A stretch of DNA of 64,000 bases from Pyrinomonadaceae bacterium. GTDB taxonomy: Bacteria > Acidobacteriota > Blastocatellia > Pyrinomonadales > Pyrinomonadaceae. Below are positions 35,861 through 46,445 of this stretch, piece by piece. A program made the translations under genes and the position numbers. Under the pieces are notes generated by a model that was given only the letters and a program-made list of their open reading frames with translations, had not been told where the DNA came from and made no database searches. Every line of letters starts with the position of its first letter. The stretch's first letter is position 1. The DNA lies in contig JAVEDP010000022.1 of the NCBI GenBank assembly GCA_030841085.1, positions 62,001-126,000 of the forward strand, read 5' to 3'.

Positions 35861-36067
35861 CCTTCAGCTCCTTTCGTTGACATCGAATGAACTTCCTAAG
35901 TCTGCCTCCGTTGTCAAAAAAGCGCACCGAGCTAGCCTTAAGAACGCATGCTTGAGCCTCCCAGCTTTCCCTCCATGCAAGACTTCTTGTATTCTTCTGT
36001 CACACTTCTTACCAGAAGTTTTGCATTTCGGCTAATAAAACCCAGGGCGCCTCAAATTAGAGAAGAA

Positions 36068-36811
36068 ATGGCGGTTACTCAGGGACACGGCAACCCGGAT
36101 TGGTCACGTGATGAGACAATTCTCGCGCTCGATTTGTATTTCAATTGCAATGGAGCAATGCCGAAAACTTCGGACCGGCTGGTACTCGAACTTTCAAGTC
36201 TCTTGAGGAGTCTGCCGTACCACAGCAAAGCAAGCCGCAAGGAAACTTTTCGAAACGCCGCCGGCGTCGTTTTTAAGCTCAAGAATCTACACAAAGTTGC
36301 TACGGGTGAGGGATTCACTACCAATGTTTCGAAAACCGATCGACTAGTGTGGGCGGAGCTTGGGGCGCAGCGCAATGAAGTCGCTCAATTGGCTGACCTT
36401 ATTAAACGATCCCTGAGCATCGATGAATTACAGGACGATACGAGCGAACCTGACGGGGAAGAGGAATTCTTTGAGGGACGGCTCCTAACCGCATTCCATA
36501 AGAAAAAGGAGCGCAATCGGAACATCCGAAACAAATTGATTGCTGCTAGACACAATCGCGGGCCGTTAGCCTGCGATATGTGTGGGCTTAAGCCTCAATC
36601 TAGTAACGCCAGATTTGAAGATGCCCCCTTCGAAGCGCATCACTTGCTGCCAATGTCGATGGCAATGGAGAGAAAAACCCAACTCAAGGACATGGCGTTG
36701 CTATGCGCGAATTGTCACCGACTTCTTCACCGAGCAATAGCACTTAAGAGGCGCTGGCTAACAGTCGTTGAAGCGCGCAAAGAGGTGGGTGTGGTTATGT
36801 CACCATCATAG
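36068..36811 (+). CDS. HNH endonuclease, first gene of the rightward arm of the island
   Basis: 247 residues from the ATG at 36068 (the frame opens at 35948, but the conserved start WSRDETILALDLYF lies just after 36068). The N-terminal half is the conserved restriction-linked domain (WxxdExilAldlYf) and the C-terminal half is an HNH nuclease: LACDMCGLKP (C169, C172), FEAHHLLPMS (H191, H192), LLCANCHRLLH (C213, C216, H217, H221). The four zinc cysteines and the HH catalytic pair are present. The next gene is a cytosine methyltransferase 173 bases downstream. Expected role: double-strand DNA cutting, possibly modification-controlled. Confidence 0.85.
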   Translation: MAVTQGHGNPDWSRDETILALDLYFNCNGAMPKTSDRLVLELSSLLRSLPYHSKASRKETFRNAAGVVFKLKNLHKVATGEGFTTNVSKTDRLVWAELGAQRNEVAQLADLIKRSLSIDELQDDTSEPDGEEEFFEGRLLTAFHKKKERNRNIRNKLIAARHNRGPLACDMCGLKPQSSNARFEDAPFEAHHLLPMSMAMERKTQLKDMALLCANCHRLLHRAIALKRRWLTVVEARKEVGVVMSPS

Positions 36812-36975
36812 CTGTCGGAAATCTGAACCGAAAAGGAATTAAGCTCCCGAGAAATGCATGAATGCAAGAACGCTTTCTATTCCCGCGCCAGACCTTGAGC
36901 CCTCGAGCAAAAATGCATCGGGCAAAATCATTATTAGGACAGCCGTGGTGGACCCTGTAAATAAACTTTTGGTAG

Positions 36976-36981
36976 TATAAT
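36976..36981 (+). promoter_or_regulatory. TATAAT -10 element of the methyltransferase gene (leaderless transcript)
   Basis: A perfect TATAAT hexamer ends three bases before the ATG at 36985. If used, transcription would start at or within the first codons, so the message would be essentially leaderless. No good -35 is visible at 17 bp spacing, so an activator or alternative factor may help. Confidence 0.45.
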
Positions 36982-36984
36982 GGT

Positions 36985-38280
36985 ATGCCCTCGAAGAGAA
37001 CCGTCATATCCCTTTTTTCGGGAGCCATGGGGCTAGACTTGGGATTGGAAGCGGCAGGATTCAAAACTGCCGTTACGGTTGAGACTAATAGCTATGCTGT
37101 AAAGACGATCAAGTTGAACCGCCCTAAGCTTCCAGTTATTCCTTACACCATTGAAGACGTCACAGCGAAGCAATTGCTAGAGAAGGCCCGGCTGAAGAAA
37201 GGCGAAGTATGCCTCGTAAGCGGAGGACCGTGTTGTCAAAGCTTCAGTACTGCTGGCAAGAGAGGCTCACTGGCAGACACGCGTGGCGGTTTATTTCGGG
37301 AGTTCACCAGAATCGTTGCGGAGACGAAGCCTCGGTTTTTCGTAATGGAAAACGTCAAGGGAATCCTATCTGCCGCAGTCAAGCACCGCACACTCAACGA
37401 TCGGGGACCTGGAACCCCTCCGTTGGAGCCGAACGAGGAACTGGGATCTGCTCTTCGCGTGATATTGCAGGAACTTAGCGAGTTAGGTTACTACGTCATC
37501 TTCGGGCTACTTAACTGCGCGGACTATGGGGTACCGCAGATTCGGCGCCGAGTGATCTTCATCGGAAGCCGCGACGGCGAAGAAATTTATCTTCCCAAAC
37601 CAACTCACGTGCAAAACCCGACAAACGGAGAGCTACCGTGGGTGACGCTTCGCGAAGCCATCGGTGATCTGAAAGGCCCGAATCCGGAAGCGATTAGGTT
37701 TTCTGACAGAGATCGAAAACTTCTCAAAATGGTCAAAGAGGGTGAGAACTGGTCCCATCTGCCGTCTCAATTTCAAGAGGAGGCCCTGGGTGCCGCGTTC
37801 AAATCATGGGGTGGCCGAAGCGGGTTTTGCCGTCGGTTAAGATGGGATAAGCCCGCGCCGACCTTGACGACGTCTCCAGTGGGTAGAGCAACCACGCTTT
37901 GCCATCCAACTCGTCTTCGGCCTCTAACAACGCGCGAGTATGCAGTCTTGCAACAATTCCCGCCGAATTGGAAATTCGAAGGAAGTGCGACTCAAAAGTA
38001 CATTCAAATTGGGAATGCAGTACCTACCGGATTGGGAAAAGTAATTGGGAATATGCTAAACGACGTGATAAAGAACACTAAGCGGAACGGTTTACCGGTC
38101 AAGGCATCGAAGCGAAAGGGGTTGGTCGTGTGCGCAGATCCGGTTCTTGAAAAAAGCCTCAAGAAGCAACCTCGAACGCAGCTCCATCCTCCCCGCCTGT
38201 TAAAGAGTTCCGACCCTGCAAAAATTCGTCAGTGGCTCAACGCAGTTCCCCGTCAAAAACAACAGTTTGAAAAGGATTGA
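36985..38280 (+). CDS. DNA (cytosine-5) methyltransferase
   Basis: 431 residues. Motifs: I VISLFSGAMGLDLGLEAAG, IV LVSGGPCCQSFSTAG, VI FVMENVKGI, VIII QIRRRVIFIGSR, IX RPLTTREYAVLQQFPPNW, X QIGNAVPTGLGKVIG. Motif IV normally reads PPCQ; here the residue before the catalytic cysteine is also Cys (GPCCQS, Cys84 catalytic, Cys83 in place of Pro). The target-recognition region is present between VIII and IX; target not deducible. No 5mC restriction nuclease of the usual Type II kind is adjacent; the neighbours are an HNH and a Vsr-like nuclease. The start follows a -10-like TATAAT. Confidence 0.92.
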   Translation: MPSKRTVISLFSGAMGLDLGLEAAGFKTAVTVETNSYAVKTIKLNRPKLPVIPYTIEDVTAKQLLEKARLKKGEVCLVSGGPCCQSFSTAGKRGSLADTRGGLFREFTRIVAETKPRFFVMENVKGILSAAVKHRTLNDRGPGTPPLEPNEELGSALRVILQELSELGYYVIFGLLNCADYGVPQIRRRVIFIGSRDGEEIYLPKPTHVQNPTNGELPWVTLREAIGDLKGPNPEAIRFSDRDRKLLKMVKEGENWSHLPSQFQEEALGAAFKSWGGRSGFCRRLRWDKPAPTLTTSPVGRATTLCHPTRLRPLTTREYAVLQQFPPNWKFEGSATQKYIQIGNAVPTGLGKVIGNMLNDVIKNTKRNGLPVKASKRKGLVVCADPVLEKSLKKQPRTQLHPPRLLKSSDPAKIRQWLNAVPRQKQQFEKD

Positions 38281-38283
38281 GTA

Positions 38284-38817
38284 GTGGAGCGCAGCCTACG
38301 AGAGAAGTTGCCCGGTGGAAAATTCCTGAATGTTAGCGCCGTACGGTCGAAGACGATGGCGTCCATTAAGGGCAAGCATGGCAAGTCCACTGAACGCAAG
38401 CTTCGAATGGCGTTAATGAGGGCAGGGATTCGAGGCTGGAAGTTACATCCGCAAGGCATTCAGGGCAACCCAGACGTACATTTTCCGAAAACCAAGGTAG
38501 TGGTATTCGTCGATGGCTGTTTCTGGCATGGCTGCCCAAGGTGTGGCCACGTTCCGCATACAAACAGCACGTTCTGGCACGCAAAGTTCAGTCGAAATCA
38601 CGAGCGCGACCTCATGAATACTCGTGCGCTTAAGAAGCTAGGCATGAAGGTGATTCGGATTTGGGAGCACTCATTAAAGAATCACTCGTCGACAGCAGCG
38701 GCAATTGATAGAATTAGGTTGGCCTTAGAAGCAAATAGACGTATTGATCAAAAAAAGAAGGGGTTCCCCCTAAGTCCCGGAAGCGGATCAAGAGTTCAGA
38801 TTGATTCACGAAGGTAG
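38284..38817 (+). CDS. Very-short-patch-repair (Vsr) type endonuclease
   Basis: 177 residues from a GTG at 38284, just after the methyltransferase stop, so the two are an operon; an in-frame ATG lies 72 bases on. Family motifs: RSKTMASIKGKHGKSTERKL, GNPDVHFPKTKVVVFVDGCF with catalytic Asp64, FVDGCFWHGC, TNSTFWHAKFSRNHERDL and VIRIWEH. Vsr cuts T:G mismatches that arise by deamination of 5-methylcytosine; the pair with a C5 methyltransferase is classical. A C-terminal basic extension is unusual. Its last 22 bases overlap the 3' end of the convergent helicase gene (38796-38817). Confidence 0.9.
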   Translation: MERSLREKLPGGKFLNVSAVRSKTMASIKGKHGKSTERKLRMALMRAGIRGWKLHPQGIQGNPDVHFPKTKVVVFVDGCFWHGCPRCGHVPHTNSTFWHAKFSRNHERDLMNTRALKKLGMKVIRIWEHSLKNHSSTAAAIDRIRLALEANRRIDQKKKGFPLSPGSGSRVQIDSRR

Positions 38818-40565
38818 CGGCTAGTAGCGAGGACTTCTGCCAGCATTATCTGTCTCGTCAACGGTTCGTCAGCATTATCTTTGAACAGTTCTTGAGCTTC
38901 GAATTCTTTCTCGGTTAAGCGTTTGTACGCACCAATTTCGATCGTTCCATCGCAAAGCAAAATCAAATACTCCACACCTTTCGATTGTCCTCTTCTGTGA
39001 ATGCGATCAAGACTCTGCAGATAGTGGGCAGTCTGATTCGACATTGATTCATAGATTGCACAGCGAGATCTGTGTAAAGTGAGCCCCGCTCCTGCCGCCG
39101 CAGGGTTCCCAACAAACAACATAGTATCTTCATCCTCTTGAAATTTCCGCACGGCTTCTCGTCGTTCGCGAACGTCAGTGACGCTACCGTCGTACCTCAC
39201 TGGGTTGAAGCGATCGTAACGTGACACGATTGCGCTAAGTGATGCTGTATAGAACGACCAGACGACTACCTTTTCTCCCTTTCGCTCGATGAGATTATCT
39301 AAGAGTTCATCGAGAGCGTGGAGCTTCGCAGCTGTTTCGTCATAGTGACTAAACAATGCAATGGGATTTGAGCAAATTTGAAAAAGGGCCGTTCGCTTAG
39401 CTAGAAATGAAGCATATTTTTTTCGAAAGCCGTCATCATCAACACTCTCCAAATCGAGCATTAGATCCTTCAAAACGCCTCCGTAAAGCTTTTCTTGCTG
39501 GGGTTGCAATTGCACCAAGACACTACTAAATCTTTTCGCCGGGAGGTTAGGTAATACCTGGGACTTGAGGCTTCTGACGTAAAGACCGTGGTTCTCCACT
39601 CGATGTTGTACGATCTGGCGTGCTTTTACCTTATCTTCCGGGATCGCAATGCCACCGAATACGACGCCGCAGTCCACGATGTTGAATTGTTCGATCACAT
39701 CGTTCGCTGAATTGGGCGCTGGTGTTCCGCACAGCACAAATGCTCGGCCGCACCATTCTCGTAGGCGGCGGAGGGCTCGCGTCCGCTTAGCATCAAGGTT
39801 TTTTATGTAAAAGGATTCATCTACCGCGAGAATTGCCCTCCCTTTATGTCGAAGGAGCAATGTTCTAAGTTCTGGCTCCATGCTAACTGCCGTTTCGTAA
39901 TTCGTAACCAGCACATCTGCCCCGGATCGAATCGCTTTCCGCTTTTGATACTGGTCGCCGACTAGGAGCTCAACCTTGTAAAGGTCATGCTTAAACCTCA
40001 CAAAATCTCGTTGCCACTCCGGTATCATGCTTTTCGGCGCGACGATTAGTGCAAAGTCGGCTTGATCTCTACTAACGAGAACATCAAATGCAAATATCAG
40101 AGTTATCGTCTTACCGGTACCTTGTTCGTCGAATACGCACAGGCCGTAGCCAGCAGGAAGAGTCATAGCTGCCACATTCTTCAATTGGTGATCGTCTAAG
40201 ACTCCTAGGCCATCAACATCTTCCAGATAGCATTTTGATAACGCCCGATTACCAGAAGTAATTCTCCTTATCTCTTCTTGAAGTCGCGGATGGCTGGTCT
40301 TAATGACGTGTCGATTCTTGACAAAGACCTCTGCCTCAGACGTCCATCGAAGGTCAGCCGCTAGATTAATATCGAAAAGCTGGTGACAGAGTTCTGCCGG
40401 AACCGCGATGCCGTCTGCTGAGCGGCTCACCCTTCCGTTTGAAATGCATTTCGCGACGATTTCACTGAGGGCCCGCGCTTCACTCCTGTCCCTTGGTCGG
40501 AACACAATACGATCAAGAGCTTCAGAAGGCATTACGTCGGCAGTTACCTTATGAAGAGACTTCAT
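38796..40565 (-). CDS. SNF2-type DNA helicase/ATPase
   Basis: 589 residues. Motifs: GLCVFDEQGTGKTITLI (Walker A, residues 149-153), FALIVAPKSMIPEWQRDF (motif Ia), VLVTNYETAV, LAVDESFYIKN (motif II, DESF in place of DEAH, then I-K-N), LCGTPAPNSANDV (motif III), and YLQSLDRIHRRGQSKGVEYL (motif VI, about 516-535). This is a SNF2/Swi2 translocase without obvious nuclease domain; the unassigned first 110 residues may bind DNA. The start overlaps the 3' end of the ParB-like gene upstream by 17 bases. DExx variant DESF is uncommon but compatible with ATPase activity. Confidence 0.87.
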   Translation of the reverse strand: MKSLHKVTADVMPSEALDRIVFRPRDRSEARALSEIVAKCISNGRVSRSADGIAVPAELCHQLFDINLAADLRWTSEAEVFVKNRHVIKTSHPRLQEEIRRITSGNRALSKCYLEDVDGLGVLDDHQLKNVAAMTLPAGYGLCVFDEQGTGKTITLIFAFDVLVSRDQADFALIVAPKSMIPEWQRDFVRFKHDLYKVELLVGDQYQKRKAIRSGADVLVTNYETAVSMEPELRTLLLRHKGRAILAVDESFYIKNLDAKRTRALRRLREWCGRAFVLCGTPAPNSANDVIEQFNIVDCGVVFGGIAIPEDKVKARQIVQHRVENHGLYVRSLKSQVLPNLPAKRFSSVLVQLQPQQEKLYGGVLKDLMLDLESVDDDGFRKKYASFLAKRTALFQICSNPIALFSHYDETAAKLHALDELLDNLIERKGEKVVVWSFYTASLSAIVSRYDRFNPVRYDGSVTDVRERREAVRKFQEDEDTMLFVGNPAAAGAGLTLHRSRCAIYESMSNQTAHYLQSLDRIHRRGQSKGVEYLILLCDGTIEIGAYKRLTEKEFEAQELFKDNADEPLTRQIMLAEVLATSRYLRESI

Positions 40566-42126
40566 TGCGTTGTTCCAGGATTGTCGAAGCGTGCTTCTCT
40601 ACTAGCTTCAAAGCTTTCAACAATCTCTTAAGGTTTTCAGGTCGTAAATCATCTCGAAATGCTTTAACCGGAAGCTCTTCTAACCATTTCACAAACGATT
40701 CGATACGGGTATTTGCTCCAAGCGTCCGCGTTTTGGGGAGGTTACTCTTCGCAATGAGAATGGCGGCTTCAACATCTACTTGGGCCGTCTTTGGCTCTAC
40801 CTCTTTTCTTGCATTTTCCAACTCTTGACGTGCTTCCGCATTCTCATAAATAACTTTCAATTCGCGGATTTGGCGCCAATTCTTGAACTTTCCACCATAT
40901 AGAAGATCAAACACCAAGTGTTTGAACTCATCATCGCGTCCCAGAGTGTATGCCACACCACTTGTTATTCCGCTTGAGAGTTCATCGAAGTACTGAAAAT
41001 ATCTGGCGACCCTGTGCTTAACTTCAAATTCATCTCGACCTTTCTCATTTATTTGATAATCTTCAAAATCGATTGCCCATGCCATCATCTTTAGGTACCT
41101 GTTGACCGTGGACGTATCCGGGCCGAGCGCAAACTTTCTTGAGAGCTCCTTCTTCAATTGAGCTTGTTTCTGAGGACTTGGTGAACGAGTTTCGAGTTGT
41201 AAGAGGCCTTCCCATTCCTCGTATACCTTTCGAGCTCGGACATAGTCAGGCCAAGGCTCTTTGCAGTCATCCTCAAAATTGAGCGAAACCACAACCGCTT
41301 CACGTTGCTCGTCTGTAGTATGCTCAGTGAGCTGCCAAGCAAAAATGTACTCGGCGCGCAGCTTTTGTTTTAAATCAAATTCATCACTGTTCAAAACGTA
41401 CCAACTCGCGGTGACCCGGCGATTTCCGTCGAGCAATGTGCCATCAATGTCGATGATGGGAGGTTTCCGCACGCCATTATTGGCAATGCTCCGCGCAAGT
41501 TTCACAATCTCAAATTGATCAGTCTTCTTGTTGGACGACACTTCGGGAACTTCTAGAAGTCCTGGTAGATCCATTCTACTCAACATCAAGTCGAGCAGTT
41601 CCTCGTGACTGGGGCCGCGTCCGTTCCTGTGTTGGAATTGCTTAAGATGTAGATCCAAGCGCTCGTTTTTCGGCCACAGCTTTATATCGCTTGTTTTGAT
41701 AAAGCCTGCCCGCATCGGCACTTCGGTTTCGTTAAAGCACGGAGTAGGAAAGACCGGCCCCGGTTGAATGCCATTGCGCTCTGCTAGCTCGACTGTCGCC
41801 CCAGCCCCATTGTTATCAGCGATTTTAGAAGGTGATTCGACTTTCATTGTGATTGAATCGCGAGACATCAAGACACGATCCATTATCTCCGCTAGCTTAG
41901 AAGTCAGAGACTCTATTGCGGCTTTGTCTTTCCTGCGCACCACAAGCTCTTTCAAGACGTTGAATGTTCTCGTGAGGAGGCGGCTCGTCTCCTCCCTGCT
42001 AAGGGAGTGATCCAAGCCGTCTTGCAGCAATTCCTCTAGTTTAGTCCCTATCTCAGCAGATATACTGCGTCCTTCTTTAATGATTTCCACAAATTCTTTC
42101 CGCAGATCATCAGTTAGCTTTATCAT
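40549..42126 (-). CDS. ParB/sulfiredoxin-fold protein with GNRR motif
   Basis: 525 residues from the ATG at 42126 (GGAAGGTGG six bases upstream; a TTG at 42147 overlapping the sigma-like gene stop is less likely). An N-terminal helical region (about 1-95) is followed by a ParB-like domain (about 140-290): FIKTSDIKLWPKNERLDLHL, LARSIANNGVRKPPIIDIDG, TLLDGNRRVTASWYVL with GNRR at 234-237, the signature of the ParB N-terminal domain that binds CTP or acts as nuclease in defence-linked relatives. The C-terminal half is helical and unassigned. It lies between the sigma-like and helicase genes in a tight operon. Substrate unknown. Confidence 0.82.
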   Translation of the reverse strand: MIKLTDDLRKEFVEIIKEGRSISAEIGTKLEELLQDGLDHSLSREETSRLLTRTFNVLKELVVRRKDKAAIESLTSKLAEIMDRVLMSRDSITMKVESPSKIADNNGAGATVELAERNGIQPGPVFPTPCFNETEVPMRAGFIKTSDIKLWPKNERLDLHLKQFQHRNGRGPSHEELLDLMLSRMDLPGLLEVPEVSSNKKTDQFEIVKLARSIANNGVRKPPIIDIDGTLLDGNRRVTASWYVLNSDEFDLKQKLRAEYIFAWQLTEHTTDEQREAVVVSLNFEDDCKEPWPDYVRARKVYEEWEGLLQLETRSPSPQKQAQLKKELSRKFALGPDTSTVNRYLKMMAWAIDFEDYQINEKGRDEFEVKHRVARYFQYFDELSSGITSGVAYTLGRDDEFKHLVFDLLYGGKFKNWRQIRELKVIYENAEARQELENARKEVEPKTAQVDVEAAILIAKSNLPKTRTLGANTRIESFVKWLEELPVKAFRDDLRPENLKRLLKALKLVEKHASTILEQRNEVSS

Positions 42127-42143
42127 CTTTGCCACCTTCCTTT

Positions 42144-42860
42144 TCAAAACGGATTCTCCTGATCCAAAATGAGAACATCCGAGATATCTAACCAGAGCCC
42201 ATCCTTTTTAGCTTGCCGTTCTAAACGCTCAAAACCCCGCGACCTGAGTCTCCGCACTGTGTCCGGCGTTAGGTCTACCATATCGCTGATTTCCTCGGGC
42301 GAAAGATCCATCAAATTCTGCTCAATCGCATCCAGTACAACCGACATGACCTTCTGAATGTTGTCTTCGCCGATCCTCGGCAGCAGAGTACGTGCGAGTT
42401 TGATTGCGTCGATACGTCTCTTCGCGGACCGTTCTTCGGCTTCGGCTTGTTCGGCTCGCGTAATTGGCGGCGCGAGTTGCGCCCGGTCGAGTTTGGATCG
42501 ACGCTCTACGTCCAAAGGGTCTTCGGTTACTGTGTTCTTCCGCATGGCGTAGCGGGCGCGGGCCTTGTTGTAGCAAGTTTTTGACAGCCACGCGGCGAGA
42601 TCAATCTTGGCCCCATGAGTCTGGAGTGCCTCGTACGTGCTGCCAATCCCTTCAGCCACGATGGCGTCGACGTCGTCGTCTGGTAGCTGCTTGCGGAGTC
42701 TCCAAGTTAGAGCGTCAGGCAATCGGCTATTGAAGAGCGCTTCCGCAAACGTCGCAACATCACCCGAGATCGCCGCTTGTTTGGCCCGGTTGAGTTGAGC
42801 TAGCTGACTTGCTTTGGCTGCTGCAATTTTTTGCGCGGTGAAATCATCGGTTTCTGCCAT
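42144..42860 (-). CDS. Sigma-factor-like protein, first gene of the leftward operon
   Basis: 238 residues from the ATG at 42860, with AGAGGACAAA upstream; longer frame starts (43055) are unsupported. About residues 50-110 look like sigma region 2: DDDVDAIVAEGIGSTYEALQ ... IDLAAWLSKTCYNKARARYA, and 185-216 looks like region 4 helix-turn-helix: LSPEEISDMVDLTPDTVRRL and RSRGFERL. The spacing and the weak region 2 suggest a diverged ECF-type sigma factor or a sigma-like DNA-binding protein. It heads the operon with the ParB-like and SNF2 genes. It may drive the methyltransferase arm, whose -10 element lacks a good -35. Confidence 0.68.
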   Translation of the reverse strand: MAETDDFTAQKIAAAKASQLAQLNRAKQAAISGDVATFAEALFNSRLPDALTWRLRKQLPDDDVDAIVAEGIGSTYEALQTHGAKIDLAAWLSKTCYNKARARYAMRKNTVTEDPLDVERRSKLDRAQLAPPITRAEQAEAEERSAKRRIDAIKLARTLLPRIGEDNIQKVMSVVLDAIEQNLMDLSPEEISDMVDLTPDTVRRLRSRGFERLERQAKKDGLWLDISDVLILDQENPF

Positions 42861-43077
42861 TTTGTCCTCTAATTCATATAATCTTCGCCTCGGACAGGCA
42901 TTGTCGCCATGGCTCGCCGGAATACGATTCGAACGCGGCAGGCGGCGGATCCCTACACTTTTTCTCTGCAAGCAATGGTGATGCTTACCGATCGATCGGA
43001 AATGGCGCCTAGATTCAAGTTGGAAGGATCGGCTCGCAGATATACGGTAGTTCAAGAACGCTGGCCCTTATTTTGGG

Positions 43078-43905
43078 TCAGCCAATGTTGCCATTGGGTT
43101 TGCGCCAGACGATTGAGTAGCGCCAGAGGAGATGCTTTTTGATTTTCGCGCCGGGGATGAGGTCGGCGCAGATGGCCCGGACTTCGCTCATCGTTGGGTA
43201 GCGGTCGTGGGCTTCGTGGGCGGCCCAGGCGGCGCGCACCTCGCGACGTGGCCGCAAGCGCCGGTGATGAAACAATCTCAGCGAGACGCTTACCGGCAGC
43301 GCCACAAAATTCGAAAAGTAATCGAACCAGCTTCGCGGATTCAAGACGTTGGCGAACGAACGGCGCCTGAATAAATCATTGAGCGGGCGTTGTGGTTCGA
43401 AAAGATCGAGGATCAGCAATACGCCGCCAGGCTTGAGCGCTGCTTTCATCTTCAACAACACCTCGCGAAACGGCAGATGATGAAGGGTGGCGATGCTGGC
43501 AATGCAGTCGAAGTGTTCCGACGGTAGATCGAACTGAAGAATATCGCCCACCTGAAATTCAAGGTTAGAAAACCAAAGCGGGGGCGTGCCCCCTTCCTGA
43601 CCCCGCGCCTCCTGAACTCCCTCCTGCTGACCTCGATCCTCCTGACCTCGAGCCTTCCTTAATTGAGTTGTGCGTTCGCGCGCGAGGCGAATCATCTCTG
43701 GCGAGAGATCGATGCCGAGCACGTGGTTGGAACGCGCGGCCAGCGCGCACGCGAAAGTTCCGGTACCGCAGCCAATCTCCAGGACCTGGTCGCAGCGCGA
43801 AGGGAGTTGCTTGAGAAGAAAGTTGTGGTAGTGCTCGTTTTGAGTCCCGCCTTCGGGTGAAGCGAGTGCGATGCGATCAAAGTCTGCTTGAAAGGTGGAA
43901 CACAT
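43078..43905 (-). CDS. Class I SAM methyltransferase with an in-frame repeat insertion
   Basis: 275 residues. DQVLEIGCGTGTFACALA is motif I and HVLGIDLSPEMIRLARERTT motif II. Right after it, residues about 83-110 are a low-complexity insert (RGQEDRGQQEGVQEARGQEG) encoded by repeats around CCTCCTGACCTCGA (43576-43659); the family then resumes with LEFQVGDILQFDLPSEHFDC, IASIATLHHLPFREV and PGGVLLILDLF. The frame stays open. Function of the methyltransferase unknown. It lies at the right edge of the AT-richer island but has neighbour-like codon use, so it marks the boundary. Confidence 0.82.
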   Translation of the reverse strand: MCSTFQADFDRIALASPEGGTQNEHYHNFLLKQLPSRCDQVLEIGCGTGTFACALAARSNHVLGIDLSPEMIRLARERTTQLRKARGQEDRGQQEGVQEARGQEGGTPPLWFSNLEFQVGDILQFDLPSEHFDCIASIATLHHLPFREVLLKMKAALKPGGVLLILDLFEPQRPLNDLFRRRSFANVLNPRSWFDYFSNFVALPVSVSLRLFHHRRLRPRREVRAAWAAHEAHDRYPTMSEVRAICADLIPGAKIKKHLLWRYSIVWRKPNGNIG

Positions 43906-44517
43906 TTTCGTGAATCGTAAATCGTGAATCGTAAATGGACCAGGAGAATCCGCAGATTACTCAGATTACACGGATGATAAGGCTAGGAATCGCCAGTCGT
44001 GAATGGTAAATCGATTGTCAGTACCGCCTCCGATAGCGCATGGGTGATCTCATTCGAAGGACCAAAGCGGCGTCCAGTGCACCCCAGCGCGGCTGCCGCG
44101 CCGGGGACCCCGCTCGCCGCCGCAGTCCAAACGAAATCCTGAATGGTGAATCGTTGGGGAGTAAACAGCAAACGGCAAACAGTTAACAGCCGGAAGAGTA
44201 AATCGTGAATAGTTAAGACTAATCCGCAGATTACGCAGATTACACAGATGATAGAGCCGTGAATCGTGAATGCTTGGGCGCTTTTGCTCGAGAGTTAGGG
44301 CTTGGCGAAAAAGGATAATACATCCACCCGCTACCGCAGGCGGTGCTGACCTCATCGCCCGCTAGCGGAATGGCTGCGAACGCAAGACCTACTTCGTGCC
44401 TCAGCACTCAGCACTCAGTACTCAGTACTCAGTACTCGGTACTCATCACTCATCACTCATCACTCATCACCCATCACTCATCACTCATCACTCGCTGCCC
44501 TGCCCACTGCCCACTGC
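43906..44517. repeat. Long gap of low-complexity repeats
   Basis: 43911-43935 and 44250-44270 are GTGAATCGTAAATCGTGAAT-type nonamers; 43951-43981 and 44221-44252 repeat CGCAGATTACGCAGATTACA; and 44400-44521 is a run of 7-base units ACTCAGT, ACTCATC and CACTCAT that changes gradually along the run. No CRISPR-like spacers and no plausible gene. Confidence 0.75.
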
Positions 44518-45867: not shown

Positions 45868-46215
45868 CTAATGAATATCCAGCGCGGCTTTGAGCCCATC
45901 TTCCAACTGTCTTAGTTCTATCGGATTCAACTCGCCGATTCGTTGGGTGAGCTTTGATCGATCCAAAGTGGTCACCTGATGACAGAGCGCAACGCTGGCT
46001 TTGCCCAGACCGGCTGTACCTTCCGGAAAGCGTACGGCAGAAGGTCCACGCCCCGCTTGTGCGGCGGAAGTCGAAAGCAGAATGACGATAATCGAGCGCC
46101 ACGCTTGGGTTTGATTAAAAGCGTTGTGTGAGATCACAATCACTGGACGTCGGCCCTGCTGCTCAGATCCTGAACGAGGAATAAGATCAGCCCAGTAGAC
46201 ATCGCCACGCTTCAT
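45868..46215 (-). CDS. mazF: MazF/PemK-family toxin (mRNA endonuclease)
   Basis: 115 residues, the family length. MKRGDVYWADLIPRSGSEQQ followed by GRRPVIVIS at the N-terminus and GRGPSAVRFPEGTAGLGKAS then LDRSKLTQRIG are the PemK/MazF hallmarks; the conserved basic and Ser/Thr residues of the mRNA-cutting site appear intact. The antitoxin gene lies directly upstream (five bases apart), as in typical operons. It is separated from the cytochrome gene by only 24 bases. Confidence 0.9.
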   Translation of the reverse strand: MKRGDVYWADLIPRSGSEQQGRRPVIVISHNAFNQTQAWRSIIVILLSTSAAQAGRGPSAVRFPEGTAGLGKASVALCHQVTTLDRSKLTQRIGELNPIELRQLEDGLKAALDIH

Positions 46216-46220
46216 GATCG

Positions 46221-46445
46221 TCAGTTTTGTTGTAATAGATGATCGTTCGCAGCAGCCTCGAAATCCGGATCAAGATCGGCAGTAGTTCCGGCGTATTGAG
46301 TGGCGTAGTCAGTGAGCGCTTGATGGAGATTTGTTCCCTTGAGGTTAGCTTGGCGTAGTGCCAATGAGTCCACAAAATCCTCGACTTCGGCCACGCGTTC
46401 AGGTGGCAGTTTCTTGATTTTTTCGATCAGTTCCTGTTGCTCCAT
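46221..46445 (-). CDS. Antitoxin of the MazF pair (DUF2281-like)
   Basis: 74 residues. The start IEKIKKLPPERVAEVEDFVD is typical of DUF2281-type and related antitoxins that dimerise through the first helix; the C-terminal acidic tail (TADLDPDFEAAANDHLLQ) would contact the toxin. An extended -10 promoter element (46453-46461) lies just upstream, so it is probably transcribed from there, with both genes co-regulated by the antitoxin. Confidence 0.82.
   Translation of the reverse strand: MEQQELIEKIKKLPPERVAEVEDFVDSLALRQANLKGTNLHQALTDYATQYAGTTADLDPDFEAAANDHLLQQN

Follow-up and report, generated by a model that had tools for sequence, protein, structure and literature searches.

A block of about 7 kb in the genome of a Pyrinomonadaceae bacterium (Acidobacteriota) raises the question of whether two sets of genes that face each other, one for an HNH nuclease, a C5-cytosine DNA methyltransferase (Dcm) and a Vsr-type nuclease, the other for a sigma factor, a ParB-like protein and an SNF2-family ATPase, form a single system, and of what such a system would do. 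The block lies in a stretch of 64,000 nucleotides (GenBank assembly GCA_030841085.1, contig JAVEDP010000022.1, positions 62,001 to 126,000 of the forward strand), called here the window. TonB-dependent carboxypeptidase-regulatory receptors and the style of the genes likewise point to an acidobacterium as the probable host. An earlier note on this DNA had placed the block at 35940-42870 and proposed it as an undescribed defence island linked to DNA modification. Our analysis indicates that the island is probably a member of a mobile, ATP-dependent, restriction-type defence module linked to C5 methylation; the defence role and every biochemical step proposed below are what we infer. The island and its genes are, in window coordinates:

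35882-42979, no strand: acquired island of about 7.1 kb, its limits set where homology to the congener G902 breaks (blastn)
35948-36811, plus strand: HNH endonuclease, 287 amino acids (aa), accessory (PF01844, 1.2e-5)
36985-38280, plus strand: C5-cytosine DNA methyltransferase (Dcm) of the module subfamily, 431 aa (PF00145, 4.7e-61)
38284-38817, plus strand: Vsr-type T:G mismatch endonuclease, 177 aa, GTG start (TIGR00632, 2e-28, above cut-off; PF03852, 5e-16)
38796-40565, minus strand: short SNF2-family ATPase, 589 aa (PF00176, 6e-23; PF00271)
40549-42147, minus strand: ParB-like protein, 532 aa (AlphaFold2 fold, conserved motifs)
42144-42860, minus strand: predicted extracytoplasmic function (ECF)-type sigma factor, 238 aa (sigma2 at residues 17-112, sigma4 at 151-221, AlphaFold2 fold)

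Open reading frames (ORFs) and domain matches bear out all six genes named in the earlier note, including the overlapping leftward operon, with HNH, Dcm and Vsr running in that order towards sigma, ParB and SNF2. The block is, as had been noticed, more AT-rich than its neighbours, being the lowest-GC 7.1 kb of the window (GC 0.496 vs 0.542; all other stretches of this length, 0.512-0.559), and the third codon positions of its genes are likewise low in GC (0.48-0.59 vs 0.61-0.67 in eight other genes). The small membrane protein and the repeat-carrying methyltransferase said to flank it are both present. The proposed extent holds for the island as such and not for its limits, which comparison with the G902 locus (L066) moves to about 35882 and 42979, homology ending at 35881 and picking up again at 42980.

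Is this set of genes found elsewhere? Taking as strong a locus with an SNF2 match above 500 bits, we found 12, including the window: eight of the window type (the window, L003, L005, L006, L007, L009, L041 and L042) and four of a distant type (L010, L011, L043 and L084). Their sources are two groups of bacteria and IMG/VR contigs. All 12 have ParB directly upstream of SNF2 in the same orientation, with a C5 methyltransferase close by, and the sigma gene is present in all eight loci of the window type. L003, in a genome of another family of the same phylum (G036), was found as a distant ParB relative and reads SNF2 < ParB < sigma < Nth, with Dcm divergent, Nth being an EndoIII-like glycosylase. 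Alignment-based searches gave the remaining loci of this type. In L005, from a Pirellulales metagenome-assembled genome (MAG), the order is Dcm > Nth > sigma > ParB > SNF2 > a PD-(D/E)XK-like gene, and the IMG/VR contig L006 has the same order. Two further IMG/VR contigs carry sigma > ParB > SNF2 facing Dcm (L007) and sigma > ParB > SNF2 > nuclease facing Nth and Dcm (L009), and L041 (genome G463) and L042 (G453) add further genomes with the module. In the distant type, sigma gives way to an uncharacterised protein and ParB is shorter; Dcm and SNF2 are present, along with a protein of 395-407 aa that has a PD-(D/E)XK-like C-terminus. L043 terminates in an Nth-like gene, and the other three are IMG/VR contigs, L084 also with a large-terminase-like protein.

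The surroundings fit a defence setting. Serine recombinases adjoin L009 and L043, and some IMG/VR contigs with related versions of the module also carry phage structural or packaging genes. In one more IMG/VR contig with a terminase-like gene (L012), Vsr adjoins ParB and is followed by a HerA-type ATPase. No match to the window ParB-like protein was obtained by tblastn against plasmids and phages, and a single-sequence scan of viral contigs gave nothing; alignments were required. A class-wide search, sampled genus members included, gave no further strong ParB match. Weak ParB matches in other genomes (E above 1e-10) are general ParB relatives and were left uncounted, and distant SNF2 matches (L085-L090, 88-116 bits) have no partner genes and fall outside the family. 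As to the sigma substitute of the distant type, it stands upstream of ParB and has 270-320 aa (L010:7137-7958, L011:7140-7967, L043:8009-8851, L084:6843-7796); the members scanned belong to no Pfam, PHROGs or PADLOC family.

Are the genes also inherited together? As the loci were found mainly via ParB, searches led by SNF2 are the fair test, and these gave no strong SNF2 match without ParB. Among 297 genomes of the host phylum, strong ParB and strong SNF2 matches fall in the same two genomes; among 294 genomes of the phylum of the Pirellulales MAG they fall in the same four (chance probability 3e-9), the four strong ParB matches there having E below 1e-88 and 11 weak ones E above 1e-6. Matches to the Dcm subfamily above 650 bits were found in three of the four module genomes of the latter phylum, and the fourth Dcm match (G465, 380 bits) is interrupted by an in-frame stop and stands without any of the partner genes across 12 kb. 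Pairwise divergence is strongly correlated between ParB and SNF2 (Mantel r 0.94), and less so between Dcm and either of them (r 0.67-0.69).

These counts bear on an alternative in which two independent neighbours were joined in a defence island, namely what remains of a restriction system (Dcm, Vsr and HNH) and a sigma-ParB-SNF2 system of its own. The arms are indeed on opposite strands in the window, L007, L009, L041 and L042, the HNH gene is found alone elsewhere, and at L003 the Dcm and ParB trees conflict. However, L005 and L006 have all genes co-directional in a single run, a C5 methyltransferase accompanies the operon at 12 of 12 strong loci, and strong matches to the Dcm subfamily are nearly confined to module genomes (3 of 4), so that this alternative, already largely refuted by the co-occurrence counts, is very unlikely. 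Dcm and the ParB-SNF2 block are one module, not two unrelated arms. The recurrence of Dcm with the three-gene operon in unrelated genomes, which the earlier note had set as its test, is thus found, and the opposite, a majority of genomes with the arms apart, was not what we saw. What is not supported is the six as one unit: the HNH gene is absent from the other seven loci of this type, Vsr is interchangeable with an EndoIII-like glycosylase, and the window lacks the PD-(D/E)XK-like protein of most sister loci. The island remains acquired, linked to modification and probably defensive, without all six genes forming a recurring unit.

What would the proteins do? The methyltransferase is canonical, with TIGR00675 and PF00145 both above cut-off and motifs I (FSGAMGLDLG), IV (the catalytic CQ), VI (ENV), VIII (QxRxR) and X (GNAV) all present, and it is 49-57% identical to the enzymes of the sister loci. 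The Vsr gene starts 3 bp downstream; its product, a canonical Vsr and thus of a kind that nicks T:G mismatches, aligns with E. coli Vsr (1cw0) across the GxPD and GCFWH catalytic motifs and is 54% identical to the L012 Vsr that adjoins ParB.

Vsr or Nth is present in 7 of the 12 strong loci. Vsr is found in the window, and beside ParB in L012, and Nth-like enzymes in L003, L005, L006, L009 and L043; in L041 (11236-13515) the methyltransferase and the glycosylase are fused in one open frame of 760 codons. The 4Fe-4S cysteines of the EndoIII-like glycosylases are present and the catalytic Lys/Asp is retained in five of six, the L041 enzyme having lost the lysine (GIGSTTA). PADLOC gives both kinds the label 'Type II nicking endonuclease'. 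Their exchange in the same slot beside a C5 methyltransferase amounts to a natural replacement experiment, which supports for both a role as a mutation guard; the pattern points to Vsr and the EndoIII-like enzyme being interchangeable repair partners. Mig of Methanobacterium, a relative of EndoIII, takes the T out of T:G pairs arising from 5-methylcytosine (5mC) (PMC2714593). One might speculate instead that the EndoIII-like partner itself restricts, by removing 5mC, or some other modified base, from the DNA of invaders, with Vsr as its nicking analogue. Base-excision restriction has a precedent in R.PabI (PMC4357717), the catalytic residues are retained as stated, and ROS1, a plant 5mC glycosylase, scores higher against the Nth-like profile (1.7e-23) than Mig does. 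Yet the glycosylase accompanies, or is fused to, the enzyme that makes 5mC, so that excision of 5mC would harm the host, and it swaps with a T:G nickase; this alternative is therefore highly improbable, and we keep to the repair partner.

The leftward operon is compact, ParB overlapping sigma by 4 bp and SNF2 overlapping ParB by 17 bp, overlaps that are typical of translational coupling; the convergent Vsr and SNF2 genes overlap by 22 bp. In the SNF2 protein, Walker A, DESF, GTPAPN and QSLDRIHRRGQ are intact and are invariant in the eight loci checked. At the gathering cut-off the ParB-like protein falls in no family of Pfam or NCBIfam. Its AlphaFold2 model (mean predicted local distance difference test score, pLDDT, 77) comprises N-terminal helices, a ParB NTPase fold at about 145-300, a helix-turn-helix (HTH) region at about 300-437 and C-terminal helices. 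ParB chains top the list of structure matches: KorB (8qa9) at Z 9.5, with 198 residues aligned at a root-mean-square deviation (rmsd) of 4.5, and Noc (7nfu) at Z 8.6, with ParB also matched. Scores of Z 8-10 are moderate, and the sequence motifs concur: the protein carries LARSIANNGVRKPPIIDxDGTLLDGNRR, and LLDGNRR and NFxxD...WPxY are conserved among the ParB-like proteins. On the model, it has a ParB-type fold, in which an NTPase fold bearing the box II arginines precedes the HTH.

The sigma ORF is open to 43055, and the ATG at 42860 is preceded by a Shine-Dalgarno-like AGAGGA. The sequence matches the ECF superfamily weakly (2e-5), but its AlphaFold2 model (pLDDT 76.5) has sigma2 and sigma4 in ECF order. 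The overall rmsd of the model is large because the two domains are freely placed; each alone fits at 2.0-2.4 A (sigmaE region 2, Z 10.1, rmsd 2.4 over 92 residues; SigR region 4, Z 7.9, rmsd 2.0 over 64). By its predicted architecture this is clearly an ECF sigma factor.

Which enzyme would cut? In 9 of the 12 strong loci (5 of 8 of the window type, 4 of 4 of the distant type) a small PD-(D/E)XK-like protein is encoded right after SNF2. The assignment is by motifs read by eye, RPDV...GEAK, with E-I-K in the larger proteins, and no library family was matched. The window has the motor and the methyltransferase with intact motifs and not this gene. The HNH protein may, as a guess, be the supplier of the nuclease there. 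As a core component it was rejected, no counterpart having been matched in the other seven loci of the window type; its homologues on plasmids are solitary or near other restriction systems, and a relative on a Psychrobacter plasmid adjoins a C5 methyltransferase and a SinI-type enzyme.

We propose that Dcm would methylate target cytosines of the host genome as a self mark and that Vsr, or the EndoIII-like glycosylase in sister loci, would repair the T:G arising from deaminated 5mC, so that the mark is not mutagenic. The ParB-like protein may be a nucleotide-switched DNA clamp or recognition subunit that would load or activate the SNF2 motor on unmethylated incoming DNA, and a nuclease, the PD-(D/E)XK-like protein in most loci and perhaps HNH in the window, would then cut. 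The ECF sigma factor may drive or tune expression of the module, or couple the ParB switch to transcription. A bolder version, which we hold only as a tentative possibility, is that DNA is sensed by the ParB-fold switch in place of a specificity subunit borne by a helicase: clamped on unmethylated foreign DNA, it would recruit SNF2 and the nuclease and, through the ECF sigma factor, activate transcription as a methylation-gated alarm.

Several observations weigh against restriction-type defence. In the window, L003 and L007, a five-sequence profile turned up no PD-(D/E)XK-like gene, and L003 has no notable ORF downstream of Dcm. The stretches upstream of sigma and Dcm yielded no palindrome or parS-like site common to the loci. 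The window and L003 enzymes are sisters in the Dcm tree and not in the ParB tree; the methyltransferase arm has therefore sometimes been exchanged. In matches to PDB, the profile of the Nth-like enzymes lies nearer to D. radiodurans EndoIII-1 and to ROS1 than to Mig, and their substrate may accordingly differ from T:G. Phages carry the module too, which would also suit a function different from host defence. A rival reading is a methylation-responsive regulatory or maintenance module, in which SNF2 and ParB would help Dcm to hold its pattern while sigma and ParB read it out in expression, as the transcription switch of a mobile element. The ECF architecture is real, ParB-fold/Sigma70 fusions that bind ATP are included in a published survey (PMC12704722), and three loci have no identified nuclease beside SNF2. 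Against this, the PD-(D/E)XK-like gene stands right after SNF2 in the nine other loci, the distant type swaps sigma for an unrelated protein, and the congener has a defence candidate at the same site. We thus consider the regulatory role unlikely, and restriction-type defence remains the reading that we favour.

Is the combination one already described? Nothing like it is in PADLOC-DB 2.0.0, which covers the parts solely by generic models for methyltransferases, Vsr and SNF2-like proteins. No description of it was found in the open-access literature, the scope of the search leaving out subscription papers, most preprints and newer catalogues; the novelty, although in line with the earlier note, is provisional because this coverage is partial. 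Within that scope, the six-gene cassette has the look of an ATP-driven, restriction-type defence system not described before.

Among published neighbourhoods, those that come nearest are the MORC/paraMORC restriction operons described by Iyer, Abhiman and Aravind in 2008 (PMC2292703) and the 7-deazaguanine (Dpd) systems (PMC12839542). The former join SNF2 helicases, C5 methyltransferases, Vsr and HNH or EcoRII-like nucleases in one neighbourhood, much as the island does, and one might take the island for such an operon minus its GHKL ATPase. But no GHKL ATPase was found among the ORFs at 35-44 kb or in the Pfam matches of eight proteins, none was seen in the ORF lists of the sister loci, and the published operons are described without the ParB and sigma partners that the island has instead; we give this derivation very little credence. 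Dpd systems resemble the module in combining, within DNA modification, a ParB-like ATPase (DpdB) with an SNF2 protein (DpdE), and the island SNF2 matches the PADLOC DpdE model at E 1e-31. They differ in that the island modifies by C5 methylation and lacks a TGT-like DpdA or other Dpd genes, the PADLOC scan of the block giving DpdE-like matches to SNF2 only.

Other likenesses are partial. The methyltransferase matches DrmMII of class 2 DISARM and the SNF2 protein matches the ZorD and DrmD models, yet the latter is short, with no fused nuclease, and the scan gave no DrmA, DrmB or DrmC and no ZorA, ZorB or ZorC (only DrmMII- and DrmD-like matches for DISARM and a ZorD-like match to SNF2 for Zorya). 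The island shares with Dcm-Vsr pairs the canonical methyltransferase motifs and the adjoining full Vsr, and with Mig-type T:G glycosylases the EndoIII-like enzyme that takes the place of Vsr at sister loci, but links these to ECF sigma, ParB and SNF2, not to a Type II restriction enzyme. With the KorB, ParB and Noc CTPase clamps the ParB-like protein has in common the predicted NTPase fold and HTH (Z 9.5-8.6) and the box II arginines in GNRR; unlike them, it sits in a methylation module, has the arginine of the third ParB motif (ENxxR) replaced, and lacks a ParA partner, none being in the module at any strong locus (a ParA-like ORF at L005 is more than 7 kb away, outside it). ParB-fold proteins, members of a fold that can bind ATP, CTP or GTP, are also known fused to Sigma70 domains (Kaljevic et al. 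2025, PMC12704722). These fusions couple the same fold to a sigma domain, whereas the island has two overlapping genes inside a methyltransferase-SNF2 module. The module would add to modification-based defence a family with a dedicated sigma factor and a clamp of the ParB type among its components, and, being only about 7 kb long and recurring in bacteria as well as phages, it lends itself to direct testing.

How did the island come to its site? Both flanks are kept in G902 at 80-89% nucleotide identity, including the small membrane protein, the flanking methyltransferase and a cytochrome gene beyond the latter. Between the same flanks (L066:9545-12527) G902 carries different genes, a C5 methyltransferase of 309 aa and a 658-aa PDC-S41 / SLFN-g3 helicase protein (PADLOC candidate PDC-S41, 956 bits), which supports a defence setting. 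The site is thus a hotspot at which modification and defence cassettes are swapped, since the flanks remain while the genes between them differ. A second congener (L067) was dropped from the flank comparison as not syntenic.

The two genes found in G902 are themselves a candidate defence cassette that brings its own methyltransferase. Just past the module in L006 (7837-10782) lies a methyltransferase of 981 aa with the appearance of PglX or a Type IIL enzyme, and L006 may for that reason be a larger defence island. Rhizobium (L008:10013-20837) and Bradyrhizobium (L053:5295-18428) plasmids share a conserved cluster of ParB-like proteins, an SNF2-like helicase and DGQHR-domain, radical SAM, ATP-binding and PIN-like proteins, which looks like another DNA-modification or defence system, possibly undescribed, with distant kin of ParB and SNF2. 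Next to the island, the flanking SAM-dependent methyltransferase (window 43078-43905) has a repetitive insert (RKARGQEDRGQQEGVQEARGQEGG) within its fold that the congener copy does not have. Imperfect short intergenic repeats follow at 44079-44390, with several copies also in the syntenic stretch of the congener (scattered short blastn matches), and 3 kb past the island, at 45868-46445, there is a small gene pair resembling a MazF-type toxin and an upstream antitoxin.

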